A stretch of DNA of 64,000 nt. Source: Candidatus Neomarinimicrobiota bacterium (GTDB lineage Bacteria > Fidelibacterota > Marinisomatia > Marinisomatales > TCS55). Within the stretch, counting starts at the first letter, position 1, and the number at the start of each line of letters is the position of its first letter. Under the pieces are notes generated by a model. The model saw only the letters and a program-made list of their open reading frames with translations, had not been told where the DNA came from and searched no databases. Where the stretch lies: NCBI GenBank assembly GCA_018651745.1, contig JABIDL010000027.1, positions 7,636 to 71,635 of the forward strand. Direction: 5' to 3'. The position numbers were made by a program, and so were the translations under genes. Positions 3,305 to 63,218 of this stretch are shown here, one piece after another.

Positions 3305-4306
3305 GTGTTTACTCTCAAGGAAATAGCGACCTTGGTTAACGGAGAAGTTGTAGGAGATGGCGATGTACTTATTACAGGAGTTTCTGACATTCGCAATTCA
3401 AAACCCGGAACCATTACCTTTTTAAATGGACGGAAATACATGGAATATTCCTATTCGTCCAAAGCATCAGCAATAGTTACGAATGAAAAAGAGATTCTAG
3501 GAAATATGGATGGAATCTTCGTGGATGATGTACGCATTTGTATGGCTAAAATAATTAAACAATTTGCTCCTGAGTTAAAAGTAAAACCCGGTTTAAATAA
3601 AACTGCCAAAATTGCTTCAAGCGCAACCATAGGAAAAAATGTATCGGTTGGACCTTTTGCCGTTATTGAAACTGACGTTCAAATTGGCGACAATACGAAC
3701 ATAGGTGCACAAGCGGTTATTGAAGAAGGTGTAATTATAGGTTCAAATGTTAGTATACATTCAGGAGTGAAAGTATATAAAAATTGTAAGATTGGCAGTC
3801 AAGTCACCATTTTTTCAGGTACGGTAATTGGAGCTGACGGATTCGGATTTGTGACAGAAAATGATTATCCATTTAGAATCCCTCAAATTGGTCGGGTGAT
3901 AATCCGAGATAAAGTAGAAATTGGTCCCAATTGTTCAATTGATCGAGGAACAATAGGAGATACAATTATCGGAGAGGGATCAAAATTTGATGGCCAAATA
4001 CATATTGGACACAATGTTCAAATTGGCAAGGGGTGTCTTTTTGCCGGACATTCTGCTATTGGAGGTAGTACAATTATAGGGGATTACTGTATGTTCGGCG
4101 GAAAAAGCACAGCAACAGATCATATTACAGTTGGGGACAAATCTATGGTTGCTGCAGTATCAGCGGTAATGAAATCTGTGCCAGGCGGAGAGATTTATAG
4201 CGGGCGCCCTGCACGAAAACTTCGCGATCAACAGAAAAAAGATGCTGTATTAACTCAAATTTCAGGATTGAAAAAACGACTTAGAAAGTTGGAGGAGAAT
4301 TCCTAA
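3305..4306 (+). CDS. lpxD: UDP-3-O-acylglucosamine N-acyltransferase
   Basis: 333 residues with a GTG start 12 bases after the skp stop. LpxD adds the N-linked hydroxyacyl chain in the third step of lipid A synthesis. The N-terminal uridine-binding domain (about 1-100, with ITGVSDIRNSKPGTITFL) is followed by a long left-handed beta-helix of hexapeptide repeats (about 100-310). The family block GADGFGF sits near residue 178 and the catalytic His lies in IHIGHNVQIG near residue 238. A short C-terminal helix (LKKRLRKLEENS) ends the protein. Length and motifs match the family. Confidence 0.95.
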   Translation: MFTLKEIATLVNGEVVGDGDVLITGVSDIRNSKPGTITFLNGRKYMEYSYSSKASAIVTNEKEILGNMDGIFVDDVRICMAKIIKQFAPELKVKPGLNKTAKIASSATIGKNVSVGPFAVIETDVQIGDNTNIGAQAVIEEGVIIGSNVSIHSGVKVYKNCKIGSQVTIFSGTVIGADGFGFVTENDYPFRIPQIGRVIIRDKVEIGPNCSIDRGTIGDTIIGEGSKFDGQIHIGHNVQIGKGCLFAGHSAIGGSTIIGDYCMFGGKSTATDHITVGDKSMVAAVSAVMKSVPGGEIYSGRPARKLRDQQKKDAVLTQISGLKKRLRKLEENS

Positions 4307-4323
4307 CATTCGGAAGGTAGAAT

Positions 4324-5253
4324 ATGGAAAGAAACCAGAAAACAATAGCTAAATCTGCTTCTTGTATTGGTGTCGGTCTTCATACCGGAGTTGAGAGTAC
4401 AATAACCTTTAAACCAGCGCCAGAGGATTATGGTATTCGATTTGCTAGAACAGATGTTACGGGTTGTCCTGAGATCAGAGCTGATATTGAACATGTAGTC
4501 GATATTTCACGGGGGACGACCATCGAAGAAAATGGAGTTAGAATCCAAACTGTAGAGCATGCTCTTGCCGCAGTTACCGGTCTTAGAATTGATAATATTC
4601 TAATTGAGCTAACCGAAAAAGAAGCCCCCGTTATGGATGGAAGTGCAAAAGATTTTGTTGATGTAATTATGGATGCTGGCATTGTTGAACAATCGAAGTC
4701 TCGATCTGTTCTCGTTATTGATAAACCTGTTATGTATTCTGACCCTAAAAAAGAAATTGATATTCATGTTGTTCCTTCAGATCGCTTTAGAATTACGTTT
4801 ATGGTTGACTATTCTCTTCCTCAATTAGGTACACAGTACGAAGCAATCTATAATATGGCTGAAGATTTTGCAGAAGAAGTAGCACCCGCTAGAACGTTTT
4901 GTTTTTTAAGCGAAGTGGAAATGTTGAAAGAAAAAGGGCTTATTAAAGGTGGTAGTTTGGATAATGCTATTGTAATTGTTGATAAAGAAATTGATATAAA
5001 AGAAGTGAATAGTTTGCAAAAAGAGTTTGGTGTCCAAGAAGCGATAAGTTTAGGAGCCAATGGTATCCTGAATGGAAAAGTTTTAAGATTCAAAAATGAA
5101 CCAGTGAGGCATAAAGCGTTGGATTTAATAGGTGATCTAGCATTACTTGGTAGACCCATCCAAGGGCATGTAACCGCCGCCAGAAGTGGTCATGCGAGCA
5201 ATGTTGAGTTTGTAAAAATGATCCGCAGTCAATACCTGTCAGTATTTAATTAA
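4324..5253 (+). CDS. lpxC: UDP-3-O-acyl-N-acetylglucosamine deacetylase
   Basis: 309 residues. LpxC is the zinc deacetylase that commits UDP-acyl-GlcNAc to lipid A synthesis. Zinc ligands are visible as His79 in VEHALAAVTG and His263/Asp267 in RHKALDLIGD, and a further conserved His lies in the ARSGHASN segment. Many Bacteroidota carry an LpxC-FabZ fusion; here LpxC ends with its own stop and fabZ starts separately 19 bases later. The ATG at 4324 is preceded by a purine-rich GGAAGGTAG. Confidence 0.96.
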   Translation: MERNQKTIAKSASCIGVGLHTGVESTITFKPAPEDYGIRFARTDVTGCPEIRADIEHVVDISRGTTIEENGVRIQTVEHALAAVTGLRIDNILIELTEKEAPVMDGSAKDFVDVIMDAGIVEQSKSRSVLVIDKPVMYSDPKKEIDIHVVPSDRFRITFMVDYSLPQLGTQYEAIYNMAEDFAEEVAPARTFCFLSEVEMLKEKGLIKGGSLDNAIVIVDKEIDIKEVNSLQKEFGVQEAISLGANGILNGKVLRFKNEPVRHKALDLIGDLALLGRPIQGHVTAARSGHASNVEFVKMIRSQYLSVFN

Positions 5254-57302: not shown

Positions 57303-57476
57303 ACCAGCCCAGTCATCGCGAGGATGCACGAGGACGCTATCCCCAAATATCTGTTTCAATTAAATTTGTAAATGAGTTGTATTATTATGTATAAGTTGTT
57401 TAAAATAGACAAATTCAATGAACAAAATGTGTACTAATATTGATAAATCGAGGTGTATATACACAAGAGGTGTATT

Positions 57477-59882
57477 ATGAAACAATGGTTGAATAACAAC
57501 ACAATTCTAACTCTCCTTCTTTTCTCTGTGCTCTGCAATGTGTCTGGGCAAAGTACTGCCGAATTAAAGAAAAAAGCACAAGAAATGGGGATAACTCCTA
57601 CACAAGCAAAAGAAATCGCCAAGCAGCGGGGGATGACGGACGCTCAAATCCAAGCCGAATTAAAAAAACGAGGGGTGTCTGCTGATTCTGAACTCGGAGG
57701 TTTGACTTCCCAAGAAGAAACAAGCGCGGATGGTTCCACTGAATTAACTGAAGAATCGGTAGTGGATTCTCCTGCTGAGGATGAAATAGAACCGGAGTCT
57801 GAAGAACAAGCTGCTCTAAAACCTCTTAACCGGTTCGGATATGATATTTTCCGTGGAGACCCCAGTGTATTCCAATCCTCCAATTTTGGCGCTGTTGATC
57901 CCAATTATAATATTGGTCCTGGCGATGAGGTTATCATTATGCTCTGGGGCGAAACGCAATTTCGACAAGTCTTTACGGTAAATCGAGAGGGGTTTATTTT
58001 TATGCCGGAAGTTGGACAAGTTTTTGTAAACAGTCAAACTCTCGGAGAACTGGAACGGAAACTTTCTCGCCTGCTTTCAAAAGTATATTCCAGCATCAGT
58101 CCCTCAACCGGGAAGGCTACAACTTTTATGGATGTGAGTTTGGGGAACCTACGCCCGCTCAGAATAATGGTTTTGGGTGAAGTTTCTCAGCCCGGCGCCT
58201 ATTCTGTAAGCCCATCCGCCACATTGTTCACGGCATTATACTATTTTCGAGGTCCAACAGCTCTTGGGTCATTGAGAGATATTAGACTCATCAGAAACGG
58301 GAAGCAAATTGCCAGCATTGATTTTTATGATTATCTGCTTAGTGGTAAACAAACGAATGATGTCCGTTTACAACTTGATGATGTGATTTTTATCCCAACT
58401 AGAGGGAAAACTATATCCATCCAAGGATCTATTAATCGAAATGCCATATTTGAGTTAAAACAAGATGAGAATATCAGCGATCTTGTTCAAATGGCCGGAG
58501 GTATAGAAATAACCGCCTTCATCGACCGCGCCCAAATTGACCGAGTTGTTCCTTTTGAAGATAGAACGGAAGATTGGAATGACCGAGTTTTAACAGATTT
58601 TAACCTTGGTGAAGAATTAGCCGGGGGAAAAACACAAATTCGGTTACACGATGGTGATAAAATTCAGATTTTTTCTATTTTAGACATGCACAAGAACGAT
58701 GTTCATATCGTTGGTTCTTCTGTCGTTCGCCCCGGTCGGTATGAGCTTAAGCCGGGTATGCGCGTTGGAGACCTTGTGGAAATGGCAGAAGGCCTACTGA
58801 GTGATGTATATTTACCACAAGCTCATCTCATCCGCACTCGTCCGGAAGATTTACGAGATGAACTATTAACAATCAACTTAGGAAAAGCGTTGGAAGGTGA
58901 CACGTTAAATAATATCGAATTACAATGGATGGATAGATTGGTGGTTTTTAATGAGAATACAATTGAAAATTCGTTCAAATACGTTCGCATTTTAGGATCT
59001 GTAAAATCACCCGGCACCAAACCATTTTTTCCCGGAATGACGCTCAAAGAACTATTTTTGAATGCCGGTGGGTTTACGCCTGAAGTGTACCGCGCAAAAG
59101 TAGAAATTTCTCGGATTGATCCGGAAAATCCCCAACCAAATGATTATGCGAAAATTATTACTTTATCGTTTAACCAACACGATGCGGTTTCGCCCTATTT
59201 CTCACTTGACAATCTGCAAGACAGGGGCGGCATATTTTGTAATTACGAAATCCAGCCCAATGATATTGTCAGCATCCGCCGGGATCCGTATTTTAACCCG
59301 CAGAGACAAGTAACCATTGCCGGATCCGTTGTGTATCCCGGGACGTACAGTATTGATTCCCCAACTGAAAAAATTACGGATATTGTTTCTCGCGCCGGCG
59401 GTCTCCGACCTGAAGCATATCCCATGGGATCAACTTTTCAGAGAAACGGTGTGGATATTCAAATATCTATGAAAGAAATTTTGCGAAGGCCATCATCTTC
59501 GATGAATTTCACCCTAAAACACGGTGATATCATTGCCATTCCAGAACATCCTGAATTGGTATATGTTAATGGCGAAGTCAATAGCCCCGGAGCATATAAA
59601 TATATTCCCGGGAAAAACCTTCGGTATTATCTCAAGAATGCAGGTGGCTATGCTCCCGATGCTGATGTAGATAATGTTTATGCCTCGTCTCCCGATGGAA
59701 CTTCTATTCTTCATTCCAAGTGGAGTTTATTTTCTCCCGGAATTCCGGATGGGTCCATTATTACTGTTTCAAGGGTAGAAGATGCGGAACCGTTTGATAA
59801 GACGGAATTTGCTAAGGAAATGACTGCTATTTTTGCGAATTTTGCGCAAGTTGTTTCTGTCATTTATTTAGCCACTAGGTAA
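57477..59882 (+). CDS. Wza-like polysaccharide exporter with multiple SLBB domains
   Basis: About 801 residues from the ATG at 57477 (AGAGG upstream). A signal peptide (to about residue 25) precedes a helical linker (TPTQAKEIAKQRGMTDAQ), an acidic stretch, and the polysaccharide-export domain at about 142 (YNIGPGDEVIIMLWGETQ). At least six SLBB-type segments follow, starting near residues 231, 311, 409, 502, 611 and 694, each with a G-x-V-x-x-PG-x-Y pattern. It is much longer than E. coli Wza (about 380). The C-terminal FANFAQVVSVIYLATR may be the membrane-spanning helix. It likely forms the outer-membrane channel for capsule or exopolysaccharide. Confidence 0.92.
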   Translation: MKQWLNNNTILTLLLFSVLCNVSGQSTAELKKKAQEMGITPTQAKEIAKQRGMTDAQIQAELKKRGVSADSELGGLTSQEETSADGSTELTEESVVDSPAEDEIEPESEEQAALKPLNRFGYDIFRGDPSVFQSSNFGAVDPNYNIGPGDEVIIMLWGETQFRQVFTVNREGFIFMPEVGQVFVNSQTLGELERKLSRLLSKVYSSISPSTGKATTFMDVSLGNLRPLRIMVLGEVSQPGAYSVSPSATLFTALYYFRGPTALGSLRDIRLIRNGKQIASIDFYDYLLSGKQTNDVRLQLDDVIFIPTRGKTISIQGSINRNAIFELKQDENISDLVQMAGGIEITAFIDRAQIDRVVPFEDRTEDWNDRVLTDFNLGEELAGGKTQIRLHDGDKIQIFSILDMHKNDVHIVGSSVVRPGRYELKPGMRVGDLVEMAEGLLSDVYLPQAHLIRTRPEDLRDELLTINLGKALEGDTLNNIELQWMDRLVVFNENTIENSFKYVRILGSVKSPGTKPFFPGMTLKELFLNAGGFTPEVYRAKVEISRIDPENPQPNDYAKIITLSFNQHDAVSPYFSLDNLQDRGGIFCNYEIQPNDIVSIRRDPYFNPQRQVTIAGSVVYPGTYSIDSPTEKITDIVSRAGGLRPEAYPMGSTFQRNGVDIQISMKEILRRPSSSMNFTLKHGDIIAIPEHPELVYVNGEVNSPGAYKYIPGKNLRYYLKNAGGYAPDADVDNVYASSPDGTSILHSKWSLFSPGIPDGSIITVSRVEDAEPFDKTEFAKEMTAIFANFAQVVSVIYLATR

Positions 59883-60014
59883 TCACTCCCGTGATGCTGA
59901 ATACATTCCGCTATTTCCCTTCCCCTTTTTTTATTAACAACCCCTCTGTGTCCAACCTTTCAATCTCCCCCAATGTTATATCAATCCAAAAACCCACTAA
60001 TCAAATTTTTCATA

Positions 60015-60046
60015 AACACCCGAACACCCGAACACATGAACACTTC
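60015..60046. repeat. Octamer tandem repeat AACACCCG
   Basis: Four 8-base units (two perfect AACACCCG, then AACACATG and AACACTTC), about 27 bases upstream of the HTH-Wzz start. Length change here could alter the spacing between promoter and start. Confidence 0.6.
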
Positions 60047-60072
60047 CCCTCTGTGTTCTCTGTGGCTAAAAA

Positions 60073-61311
60073 ATGAATTTTGACCAACTCCTAGAATTAT
60101 TGTACAATGCCAAGGGCATCACCCGGCTGGCAGACGTTGCCCGCGAGCTCGATGTTTCGCCCCAGGCGGTCAGCAACTGGAAGGCACGAAACCAAGTGCC
60201 GTATAAATACGTGGTAATAGTGAAAGAGCGCTTCGTTGCTGGAGAACTTGAAGGAGTGGAATCAGAAGAATCGGATAGAAATGTAAAACCACGTGCCGAA
60301 GAACTTCAGGCGCCAATGCCGTACGGTCCGTATGGTTTCCCCGAAGAGGACGAAATATCTCTGTGGGAAATTTTAGATGTGCTTAAAGAAAATATTCGGC
60401 TGATTCTAATCATTCCAACGGTAACCTGCATTCTAACCATCATTTATGTGCTCTTTATTGCTCAGCCGGTATTTACCTCCTCAGCGACTATTATTCCGGC
60501 AAGTGGAGAAAGTTCTATCGGGAATCTAGCGGGGATGGCTGCCCAATTTGGGATAACGGTACCCGGCGGGAATGAATCTGCCCCAAGTATGGTTTACCCG
60601 GAAATTATTCAAAGCCGGACGCTTGCTCGAAAACTTCTTAACAGAAAATTTAATACAAATGAGTACGGCCAAAATAAAACACTACTCCACATTCTTATGG
60701 TTGGGCACGATGAGCCAGAATATGGGTCGGATACCTTAGAAGCTTTGGCTATAGAATATTTGCAGGGAGAGGCGATTTCGGTTGAAAAAGATCGCCAATC
60801 GTCTATCCTTACGTTGACAGTCCAAGCCTTTGAGCCTCAACTGGCGGCAGATATGGCGACAGCATTGATTGAAGAATTGGATGAACATCAAAAACAATTC
60901 AACATTGAACAGGCAGCAAAAAAACGTATATTTATTGAAGAACGAATTGAAGAAGTGCGGTTGGATTTAGAAACAGCTGAAGAAGTACTCAAGGATTGGA
61001 GGCAGGGAAATAGAAATATCGGAGATTCGCCTGCACTTTTATTAGAGCAGGAACGCCTCATGCGAGAATCTGAAGTGCAAAAAAGTCTTTACATTACCCT
61101 AAAGCAAGAATATGAAATGGCTAAAATTGAAGAGGTGGAAGAATCTGATATTATATATATTTTGGATAAACCTGAGGTGCCTTTAGATAGAAGCAGCCCG
61201 AAGAGAAAGATGAGTGTGCTGCTGGCGGGGTTTCTCGGGATTGGAATGGGGGTGGTTGCGGCCTTCATAAGAAACTGGTACGAAACATCGCAAGATAAAG
61301 TAGCGGAATGA
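60073..61311 (+). CDS. Wzz-type polysaccharide co-polymerase fused to an N-terminal HTH domain
   Basis: 412 residues. Residues about 1-60 form a phage CI repressor-like HTH (GITRLADVARELDVSPQAVS, then NWKARNQVPYKYVVIVKERF). After a linker comes the Wzz architecture: membrane helix 1 at about 109-133, a periplasmic coiled-coil region with EERIEEVRLDLETAEEVLKD, the Pro-rich KPEVPLDRSSPKRK, and membrane helix 2 at about 380-402. Wzz proteins set polysaccharide chain length. A cytoplasmic DNA-binding-type domain on such a protein is unusual. No tyrosine-kinase domain is present. It lies 190 bases after the SLBB exporter, in the same direction. Confidence 0.87.
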   Translation: MNFDQLLELLYNAKGITRLADVARELDVSPQAVSNWKARNQVPYKYVVIVKERFVAGELEGVESEESDRNVKPRAEELQAPMPYGPYGFPEEDEISLWEILDVLKENIRLILIIPTVTCILTIIYVLFIAQPVFTSSATIIPASGESSIGNLAGMAAQFGITVPGGNESAPSMVYPEIIQSRTLARKLLNRKFNTNEYGQNKTLLHILMVGHDEPEYGSDTLEALAIEYLQGEAISVEKDRQSSILTLTVQAFEPQLAADMATALIEELDEHQKQFNIEQAAKKRIFIEERIEEVRLDLETAEEVLKDWRQGNRNIGDSPALLLEQERLMRESEVQKSLYITLKQEYEMAKIEEVEESDIIYILDKPEVPLDRSSPKRKMSVLLAGFLGIGMGVVAAFIRNWYETSQDKVAE

Positions 61312-61721: not shown

Positions 61722-62273
61722 ATGCTTGAAACATTAATCACATCCAAAACAAGGATCAAACTTCTACTGAAGTTCTTCCTCAACCCGGGAACCCGGGCTT
61801 ACCTTCGGGAGCTTGCCACGGAATTTGGGGAATCCACCAATGCCATTCGCGTGGAATTAAATCGTTTGACGGACGCCAAGTTGCTTGAACGAGGGGAAAA
61901 TGGCAGGACGGTGATGTACAATGCCAATACCAATCATTCTCTATTTAGTGACATTCAGAATGTGGTAAAAAAATATATGGGAATTGATAAACTAGCAGAA
62001 GAGTTGGTTGCAAAACTTGGTGAGGTGAAAGTGGCATACGTTATTGGAGATTACGCGAAGGGTCATGATTCCGGGTTGATAGATTTAGTTTTGGTGGGAC
62101 ATATTGATGAAACCAAATTGAAGGAAGTAACCGCCAAAACCGAAACATTAATTGATCGCAAAATTCGGACGCTTATTTTGAGTGCAGATGATCTTAAAAA
62201 ATTAACCAAACGGTTAAATCTTGATCGCGCTCTTTTGATTTGGGGAAAAGAAACAGTGAATAGTGAACAGTAA
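61722..62273 (+). CDS. Winged-helix regulator with nucleotidyltransferase-like C-terminal domain
   Basis: 183 residues. The N-terminal half (about 1-75) is a winged HTH (AYLRELATEFGESTNAIRVE, then LNRLTDAKLLERGENGRTVM). The C-terminal half resembles an MNT-type nucleotidyltransferase core (VIGDYAKGHDSGLIDLVLVG), but the catalytic Gly-Ser and Asp-x-Asp residues are not conserved, so it is probably a sensor or a dead enzyme. This type occurs at the start of FCB polysaccharide loci. Its stop overlaps the S23 gene start, and it has its own promoter with an operator. Confidence 0.82.
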   Translation: MLETLITSKTRIKLLLKFFLNPGTRAYLRELATEFGESTNAIRVELNRLTDAKLLERGENGRTVMYNANTNHSLFSDIQNVVKKYMGIDKLAEELVAKLGEVKVAYVIGDYAKGHDSGLIDLVLVGHIDETKLKEVTAKTETLIDRKIRTLILSADDLKKLTKRLNLDRALLIWGKETVNSEQ

Positions 62274-62595
62274 TGCGTTTGAAAACCCACAAAGATTTAG
62301 ATGTTTATCAGAATTCTATGGAATTAGTAACTGATATATACCATATGACTAAGTTTTTTCCCAGGGAAGAGCAATATGGCCTGACCAGCCAGATCAGGCG
62401 ATCTGCTGTATCCGTCCCATCCAACATTGCTGAAGGTGCTGCCAGAAAAAGTAAACCGGAATTCATCCAATTTCTATATATAGCCCTTGGTTCATTATCA
62501 GAGCTAGAAACACAATTAATAATTTATTGTCAAAGATAACTAATGTACGGAAAATGATTTTTGGATTGGTTAAATCTGTCAAGAGCAAATCATGA
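62273..62595 (+). pseudogene. Four-helix-bundle (S23-type) gene, disrupted by deletion and frameshift
   Basis: The first 88 codons are a good S23/IVP-type protein (THKDLDVYQNSMELVTDIY and QIRRSAVSVPSNIAEGAAR), then a premature stop at 62537-62539. Typical members have about 115-125 residues. In another frame, from 62545, the missing tail reads VRKMIFGLVKSVKSKS and stops at 62593-62595, overlapping the next ATG as ATGA. A short internal deletion of non-triplet length therefore removed helix 4's start. The 88-residue product may still be made. The family function is unknown. Confidence 0.8.
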
Positions 62596-63218
62596 AAAAT
62601 ATTCAATCCAATACCGCTCCCAGATCACAGTTCACCGCTCACAGTTCACAGTTCACCGCTCCCAGTTCACCGATCACGAAAAAGTGGTACGCCATTTACG
62701 TCAGATCTCGCCATGAAAAGGTGATTGATTCTGAGCTCAGATTAAAAGGCATTGAATCATCTCTTCCACTGATGACTACAATTCGCCAGTGGAGCGATCG
62801 CCGGAAAAAGGTAGAGGTCCCATTATTCAGAGGATATTTATTTGTGAAAATCGAATTAAAAACAGAAAAATTATCGGTTCTTCAAACGAATGGCGTTGTG
62901 AAGTTTGTGGATTTCAATCGAAATGTTGTAATCATTCCCGAACAGCAGATGTATTGGCTGAATCAAATGGTGGATTCTAAGCTTGGGCTTCACCCGGAGC
63001 AAAACCTGCCGATTGGATCAGAGGTGGATGTGTTGGTTGGTCCGCTGAGGGGGTTACGAGGAAGGGTAAAACAAAAAAATTCAAGAACAAGGCTGGTAGT
63101 GTGGATTGATTCAATTATGCAGGGTGTTTCTGTAGAATTGGATCTCGCGTGCTTGTCGCCTACATCGCCTAAAACCAGACATATTCGTTCCGCACACACA
63201 GGAGAATATATAGTGTAA
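62592..63218 (+). CDS. NusG-like transcription antiterminator (UpxY type)
   Basis: 208 residues. The NusG N-terminal domain starts KKWYAIYVRSRHEKVIDSEL (about residue 33) and continues VPLFRGYLFVKIEL; a KOW-like segment is GPLRGLRGRVKQKNSRTRL near residue 160. UpxY/LoaP/RfaH-type paralogs let RNA polymerase read through long polysaccharide operons. The first 30 residues (SQFTAHSSQFTAPSS) are encoded by nine heptanucleotide repeats and are not part of the NusG fold. Stop/start overlap with the S23 remnant preserves the operon. Confidence 0.9.
   Translation: MKNIQSNTAPRSQFTAHSSQFTAPSSPITKKWYAIYVRSRHEKVIDSELRLKGIESSLPLMTTIRQWSDRRKKVEVPLFRGYLFVKIELKTEKLSVLQTNGVVKFVDFNRNVVIIPEQQMYWLNQMVDSKLGLHPEQNLPIGSEVDVLVGPLRGLRGRVKQKNSRTRLVVWIDSIMQGVSVELDLACLSPTSPKTRHIRSAHTGEYIV
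62613..62675. repeat. Heptanucleotide repeat array (nine units) inside a gene
   Basis: Nine 7-base units of type ACCGCTC / ACAGTTC / ACCGATC in the 5' end of the NusG-like gene. Since 7 is not a multiple of 3, gain or loss of one unit would shift the frame before the NusG domain. Confidence 0.85.

Follow-up and report, generated by a model that had tools for sequence, protein, structure and literature searches.

Positions 60073-61311 of the window, the 64-kb stretch of DNA analysed here, encode a genuine fusion of an N-terminal HTH domain to a Wzz co-polymerase, and Wzz proteins headed by an HTH are a recurrent feature of the Marinimicrobia phylum. We propose that the window protein is probably a working Wzz/PCP co-polymerase and, at the same time, a membrane-tethered DNA-binding regulator of polysaccharide genes. 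The expression of such genes is matched to assembly mostly via separate sensors; a co-polymerase doubling as the DNA-binding regulator would make a one-protein circuit.

Domains, predicted fold and conservation of the window protein

The open reading frame begins with an ATG, occupies exactly 60073-61311 of the forward strand and encodes 412 residues; domain families and homologs support its identification, and we call this form of the fusion type A. A CI/Cro-type HTH at the N-terminus (residues 1-56; 60073-60240), recognized from Pfam, AlphaFold2 (AF2) and purifying selection, comprises helices at residues 3-14, 19-25, 30-39 and 44-55. It is followed by a disordered linker (residues 57-94; 60241-60354) with pLDDT under 50 and low identity between homologs, and by a first transmembrane helix, TM1 (residues 108-129; 60394-60459), which is an AF2 helix lying within the Wzz match. 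The periplasmic co-polymerase part, identified through Foldseek matches, covers residues 130-377 (60460-61203), and the TM2 region lies inside the GNVR domain at about residues 378-400 (61204-61272).

In Pfam, Wzz (PF02706) matched residues 93-189 with 55.3 bits against a cut-off of 25.5, GNVR (PF13807) matched residues 328-401 with 39.4 bits against 27.7, and Phage_CI_repr matched residues 10-49 with 23.8 bits against 22. The match to YdaS_toxin (PF15943) reached 24.9 bits, under its cut-off of 30, and the domain is not assigned to the YdaS family. With Wzz and GNVR above their cut-offs and a predicted PCP fold with two TM helices, the protein belongs to the Wzz/PCP co-polymerases, while Phage_CI_repr together with the four-helix fold modelled by AF2 identifies the N-terminal domain as a Cro/CI-type HTH. 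The chain ends after GNVR without a Pfam kinase match, so that it lacks the C-terminal tyrosine kinase domain of PCP-2a (Wzc-like) proteins. The Pfam listing for the window protein, taken up to E 1, contains neither the OmpR-type winged HTH of CadC and ToxR nor the HTH_25 domain of RodZ.

The AF2 model presents residues 1-56 as a four-helix HTH at a pLDDT of about 90, residues 57-94 as disordered, and TM1 as leading into the PCP periplasmic fold, with TM2 contained in a helix of residues 378-411. Searched with Foldseek, the co-polymerase fold found its best matches in Wzc, WzzE and KpsE, with E down to 3e-12. When the HTH was modelled alone, its mean pLDDT was 90, and its closest structural matches were small DNA-binding regulators, namely N15 Cro with its operator, Aca1/Aca2 and HigA2; at Z of 5-7 these matches are middling and indicate the fold, not the function. 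RodZ was not among the HTH structural matches listed, an absence that carries no proof. The first-pass annotation had described a CI repressor-like HTH ahead of a complete two-helix Wzz co-polymerase, and it was right as to the fold and Pfam family of the HTH and as to the completeness of the co-polymerase. Its placement of the HTH in the cytoplasm and of the coiled-coil part in the periplasm agrees with the predicted topology.

Full-length homologs with the same domain order were found in the same genus (G001, 61% identity) and in another family (G038, 59%), and the order also recurs in G006, G020, G034, G051, G131 and others, from other families. Since such homologs occur in other genera and families, the fusion is not a product of chance. 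Although synonymous sites are saturated between homolog pairs, dN in the HTH is 0.3-0.5, and in distant pairs the HTH is conserved better than the Wzz part (in the G000/G020 pair, 53% identity vs 32-34%). The linker, by comparison, is unconstrained, with 15-31% identity in pairs with the window protein vs 45-64% for the HTH. These substitution patterns show strong purifying selection on the type A HTH, whose residues are conserved in orthologs as a functional domain in the first-pass annotation would require.

Because residues 1-56 are under selection, a pattern that a later start would not leave, translation starts ahead of the HTH. A mis-called start as the source of the HTH, and with it a start site after the HTH, is rejected on this ground. 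Some close relatives found by homolog search and on the tree have no HTH and align from about residue 78-82 of the window protein; the HTH is therefore an optional module, dispensable for the co-polymerase. The internal ATG at residue 82 (60316-60318), where these relatives begin, is a possible second start and could additionally yield an HTH-less form.

Other Wzz proteins begin with a second version of the type A HTH, termed type B. The type A HTH also heads soluble HTH-coil-PAS proteins of about 200-250 residues, a family that occurs phylum-wide with an HTH common to types A and B (L046-L050, L090-L101, L108 and L109); no HTH-PAS homolog was found in the window's own genome.

HTH-Wzz fusions across the phylum and a palindrome at type C loci

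The N-terminal HTHs of Marinimicrobia Wzz proteins belong to at least three families: the CI/YdaS-like domain of the window protein, a LexA/Lrp-like winged HTH (wHTH), denoted as type C, and an Xre HTH_3, observed once (G024). The type C domain resembles those of LexA, CggR and Lrp, and its EKTLRNR recognition helix is invariant. It is present in 60 of the 130 genomes of the order, including the genome of the window, whose second Wzz (G000:C31, 441 residues) is of this type. Frames of 338-598 residues, as expected of Wzz, contain 57 of its 62 places; the remaining five frames are short, at least one of them cut by a contig end. A quick tree built from 86 Wzz cores splits type C into at least two separate clades, and the HTH types together require nine changes of state.

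The out-of-phylum survey for wHTH-Wzz covered Pseudomonadota and Chloroflexota. With the same profile, Wzz matches were present in 65 of 200 Pseudomonadota genomes and none of the 65 carried the wHTH, and 201 Chloroflexota genomes gave one wHTH-like match only. Apart from two MAG fragments, with the labels Dehalococcoidia and Geminicoccaceae, a scan of the collection with type A patterns returned Marinimicrobia only. It is because several HTH families were fused to Wzz, type C in separate clades of the tree, and because none of the Pseudomonadota Wzz matches carried the wHTH, that we regard the fusion as a recurrent habit of this phylum. A type A HTH-Wzz fragment at the end of a MAG contig in a record labelled Dehalococcoidia (L059) probably represents a misbinned Marinimicrobia contig.

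In 15 genomes of one family, a wza-(wHTH-wzz) operon is divergent from serS. All 15 serS/wza intergenic regions share just one G/C-rich octamer, GCCCGGGC, frequently in the form GGGCnnnTGCCCGGGC. One copy stands shortly upstream of a conserved promoter-like block that precedes wza; a second copy is usually located 373-449 bp downstream, within wza at the GPGD motif. Among type C loci of about 9 kb each, 35 of 40 contain GCCCGGGC, at 54 sites, and each of the other fifteen G/C-only palindromic octamers occurs in 0-4 of 20 loci. The HTH-less Wzz loci (n=20, 136 kb) contain a single site. Two of the five type C loci without GCCCGGGC carry ACCCGGGC, and another is a 1.8-kb stub. In these relatives, TGCCCGGGC is rare genome-wide, and its other places, where inspected, were all within unrelated coding sequence. 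As the loci are related by descent, these counts do not represent independent events. A conserved block, AAGGAATACTATCGAT..AACTGCGCCCAGTTTA..AAAGGCAA, downstream of GCCCGGGC and before wza in L197-L209, L212 and L214, resembles a transcribed leader; for the leader conserved ahead of wza in the f7 loci, no Rfam match exceeded the gathering score, and no consensus fold emerged from a MAFFT alignment of 11 leaders.

In many families GCCCGGGC is intragenic. At the GPG of wza, 12 of 13 genes use the codons GGC-CCG-GGC, and none of the other columns among the 72 conserved four- or six-fold ones is as GC-rich as these three (GC3 0.92 vs a mean of 0.29). In three loci the site lies in the wza signal peptide, each time 51 bases in, and in other loci it lies inside ugd, at EPGL or VARAI. 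Nearly all ugd-first loci retain CCCGGG at EPGL, with L223 as an exception, and the chance of this hexamer there, calculated from codon usage, is about 0.035 each. CCCGGG is missing from EPGL where the site has moved to wza (L211, L216) and in HTH-less loci (L258, L275). One octamer kept in different reading contexts argues for selection on the DNA, and the codon patterns point to intragenic sites being held by synonymous codon choice.

Such a conserved palindrome is the kind of trace that a DNA-binding regulator may be expected to leave, and it supports DNA binding by the type C HTH; that the wHTH is the binder we infer from linkage alone. Since this linkage is correlational, GCCCGGGC might instead be the site of another regulator of the type C operons while the wHTH does something else, a reading that bears on the type C evidence alone and partly coincides with the docking role considered below. 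We regard it as rather unlikely, as the site follows the wHTH loci through changes of context (serS/wza, wza signal peptide, ugd) and, bar the one site in 136 kb, is absent from the HTH-less Wzz loci.

Proposed regulatory role and its alternatives

In the proposed mechanism, the cytoplasmic N-terminus would act as a sequence-specific DNA-binding domain on a functioning co-polymerase, with its own polysaccharide locus as the most likely target. The type C HTH would bind the GCCCGGGC palindrome and the type A HTH some different site; GCCCGGGC is absent from the entire window, and the dyads common to five type A loci were A-rich only, yielding no operator. PCP oligomerisation could supply avidity, and one oligomer could bridge paired sites about 370-450 bp apart. 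Assembly state, or occupancy by Wzy and polymer, may then alter DNA binding and create a feedback on the operon, through either repression or activation of transcription. For the window protein, a regulatory role seems most likely in view of its fold, the selection on its HTH, the kinship to soluble HTH-PAS proteins and the analogy with type C, and a relay of chain length or assembly state straight to DNA, as envisaged in the first-pass annotation, is put forward here as a hypothesis. More tentatively, Wzz co-polymerases may double as membrane-tethered transcription factors across the order: a type C ring oligomer would bridge paired GCCCGGGC sites in its own operon to give assembly-state feedback, and other lineages, including that of the window, would have swapped in other HTH families with their own operators. 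The type C palindrome opens the idea of a co-polymerase as regulator to direct in vitro testing; if true, this idea would add a class of membrane-bound regulators recognized in uncultured lineages through their domain fusions.

PCP classes are distinguished partly by extra cytoplasmic domains (PMC12004945). The window protein is similar to WzzE, WzzB, KpsE and the periplasmic part of Wzc in its Wzz and GNVR domains, two TM helices, fold and wza neighbour, but differs from the described PCP classes, in none of which an N-terminal HTH was found. No description of an HTH-Wzz fusion was found in the openly licensed literature, in line with the earlier remark that such a one-protein circuit was, as far as known, undescribed. 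In function, the closest precedent is Streptococcus agalactiae CpsA, which likewise is a membrane protein active in capsule assembly and reportedly binds the cps promoter through its N-terminus (PMC8875755). CpsA is, however, an LCP ligase of the LytR-CpsA-Psr family, not a PCP, and is unrelated to Wzz. The membrane-tethered one-component regulators CadC, ToxR and PsaE also combine a cytoplasmic HTH, a TM segment and a periplasmic part. In these regulators an OmpR-type winged HTH is paired with a dedicated sensor domain, whereas in HTH-Wzz proteins the co-polymerase itself makes up the periplasmic part and the HTH belongs to the CI/YdaS, LexA/Lrp-like or Xre type.

Some HTH folds are docking modules, as in RodZ, which has one TM helix and an HTH of the HTH_25 family and binds MreB. 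RodZ resembles the window protein in placing a cytoplasmic HTH, a TM helix and a periplasmic part within an envelope machine, and the HTH of the window protein might similarly recruit a cytoskeleton, glycosyltransferase or kinase without binding DNA. The fusion and the selection on the HTH fit docking and DNA binding equally. We nevertheless consider docking unlikely, as the HTHs joined to Wzz come from at least three different families, all of them DNA-binding folds, the type A HTH also occurs in soluble HTH-PAS proteins, a conserved palindrome goes with type C, and HTH_25 is missing from the listed Pfam matches. A further possibility is that the HTH binds DNA not to control initiation but to tether the locus to the membrane close to the export machine, spatially coupling transcription, translation and assembly. 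The many intragenic GCCCGGGC sites are no harder to reconcile with anchoring than with promoter control, but in 15 loci the site lies upstream of the promoter-like block before wza, the usual place of a regulator, and anchoring as the sole role appears quite unlikely. That the fusion is incidental or vestigial, or that translation from residue 82 leaves the HTH unmade, is very improbable: no clear Shine-Dalgarno sequence precedes 60073 and the ATG at 60316 coincides with the start of HTH-less relatives, but the low HTH dN at saturated dS, the stronger conservation of the HTH than of Wzz in distant pairs and the independent recurrence of HTH-Wzz fusions all speak against it.

Neighbours of the fusion gene

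The upstream partner gene (57453-59882, forward strand) encodes a Wza-like outer-membrane export protein, identified by its Poly_export and SLBB domain matches. It is separated from the HTH-wzz gene by a 190-bp gap (59883-60072), and wza/HTH-wzz gaps in the range of 103-190 bp are also seen in G001, G051 and G131. The same locus contains, at 62592-63218 on the forward strand, a NusG/RfaH-like transcription antiterminator of the UpxY family (NCBIfam antiterm_UpxY, 135 bits against a cut-off of 100); UpxY-family antiterminators are found within Bacteroides capsule loci in the same way. Between the HTH-wzz and upxY genes, the stretch 61722-62539 encodes an HTH/nucleotidyltransferase-like protein, 83% identical in G001 (L033), and a 23S rRNA-intervening-sequence (IVP) protein; IVP genes also adjoin HTH-wzz in G034 (L044). 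In L034, a Wzz-like ORF at 4122-4991, the C-terminal 45 residues of which match the end of Wza (62%), is apparently a fragment from recombination in a duplicated wza/wzz locus.
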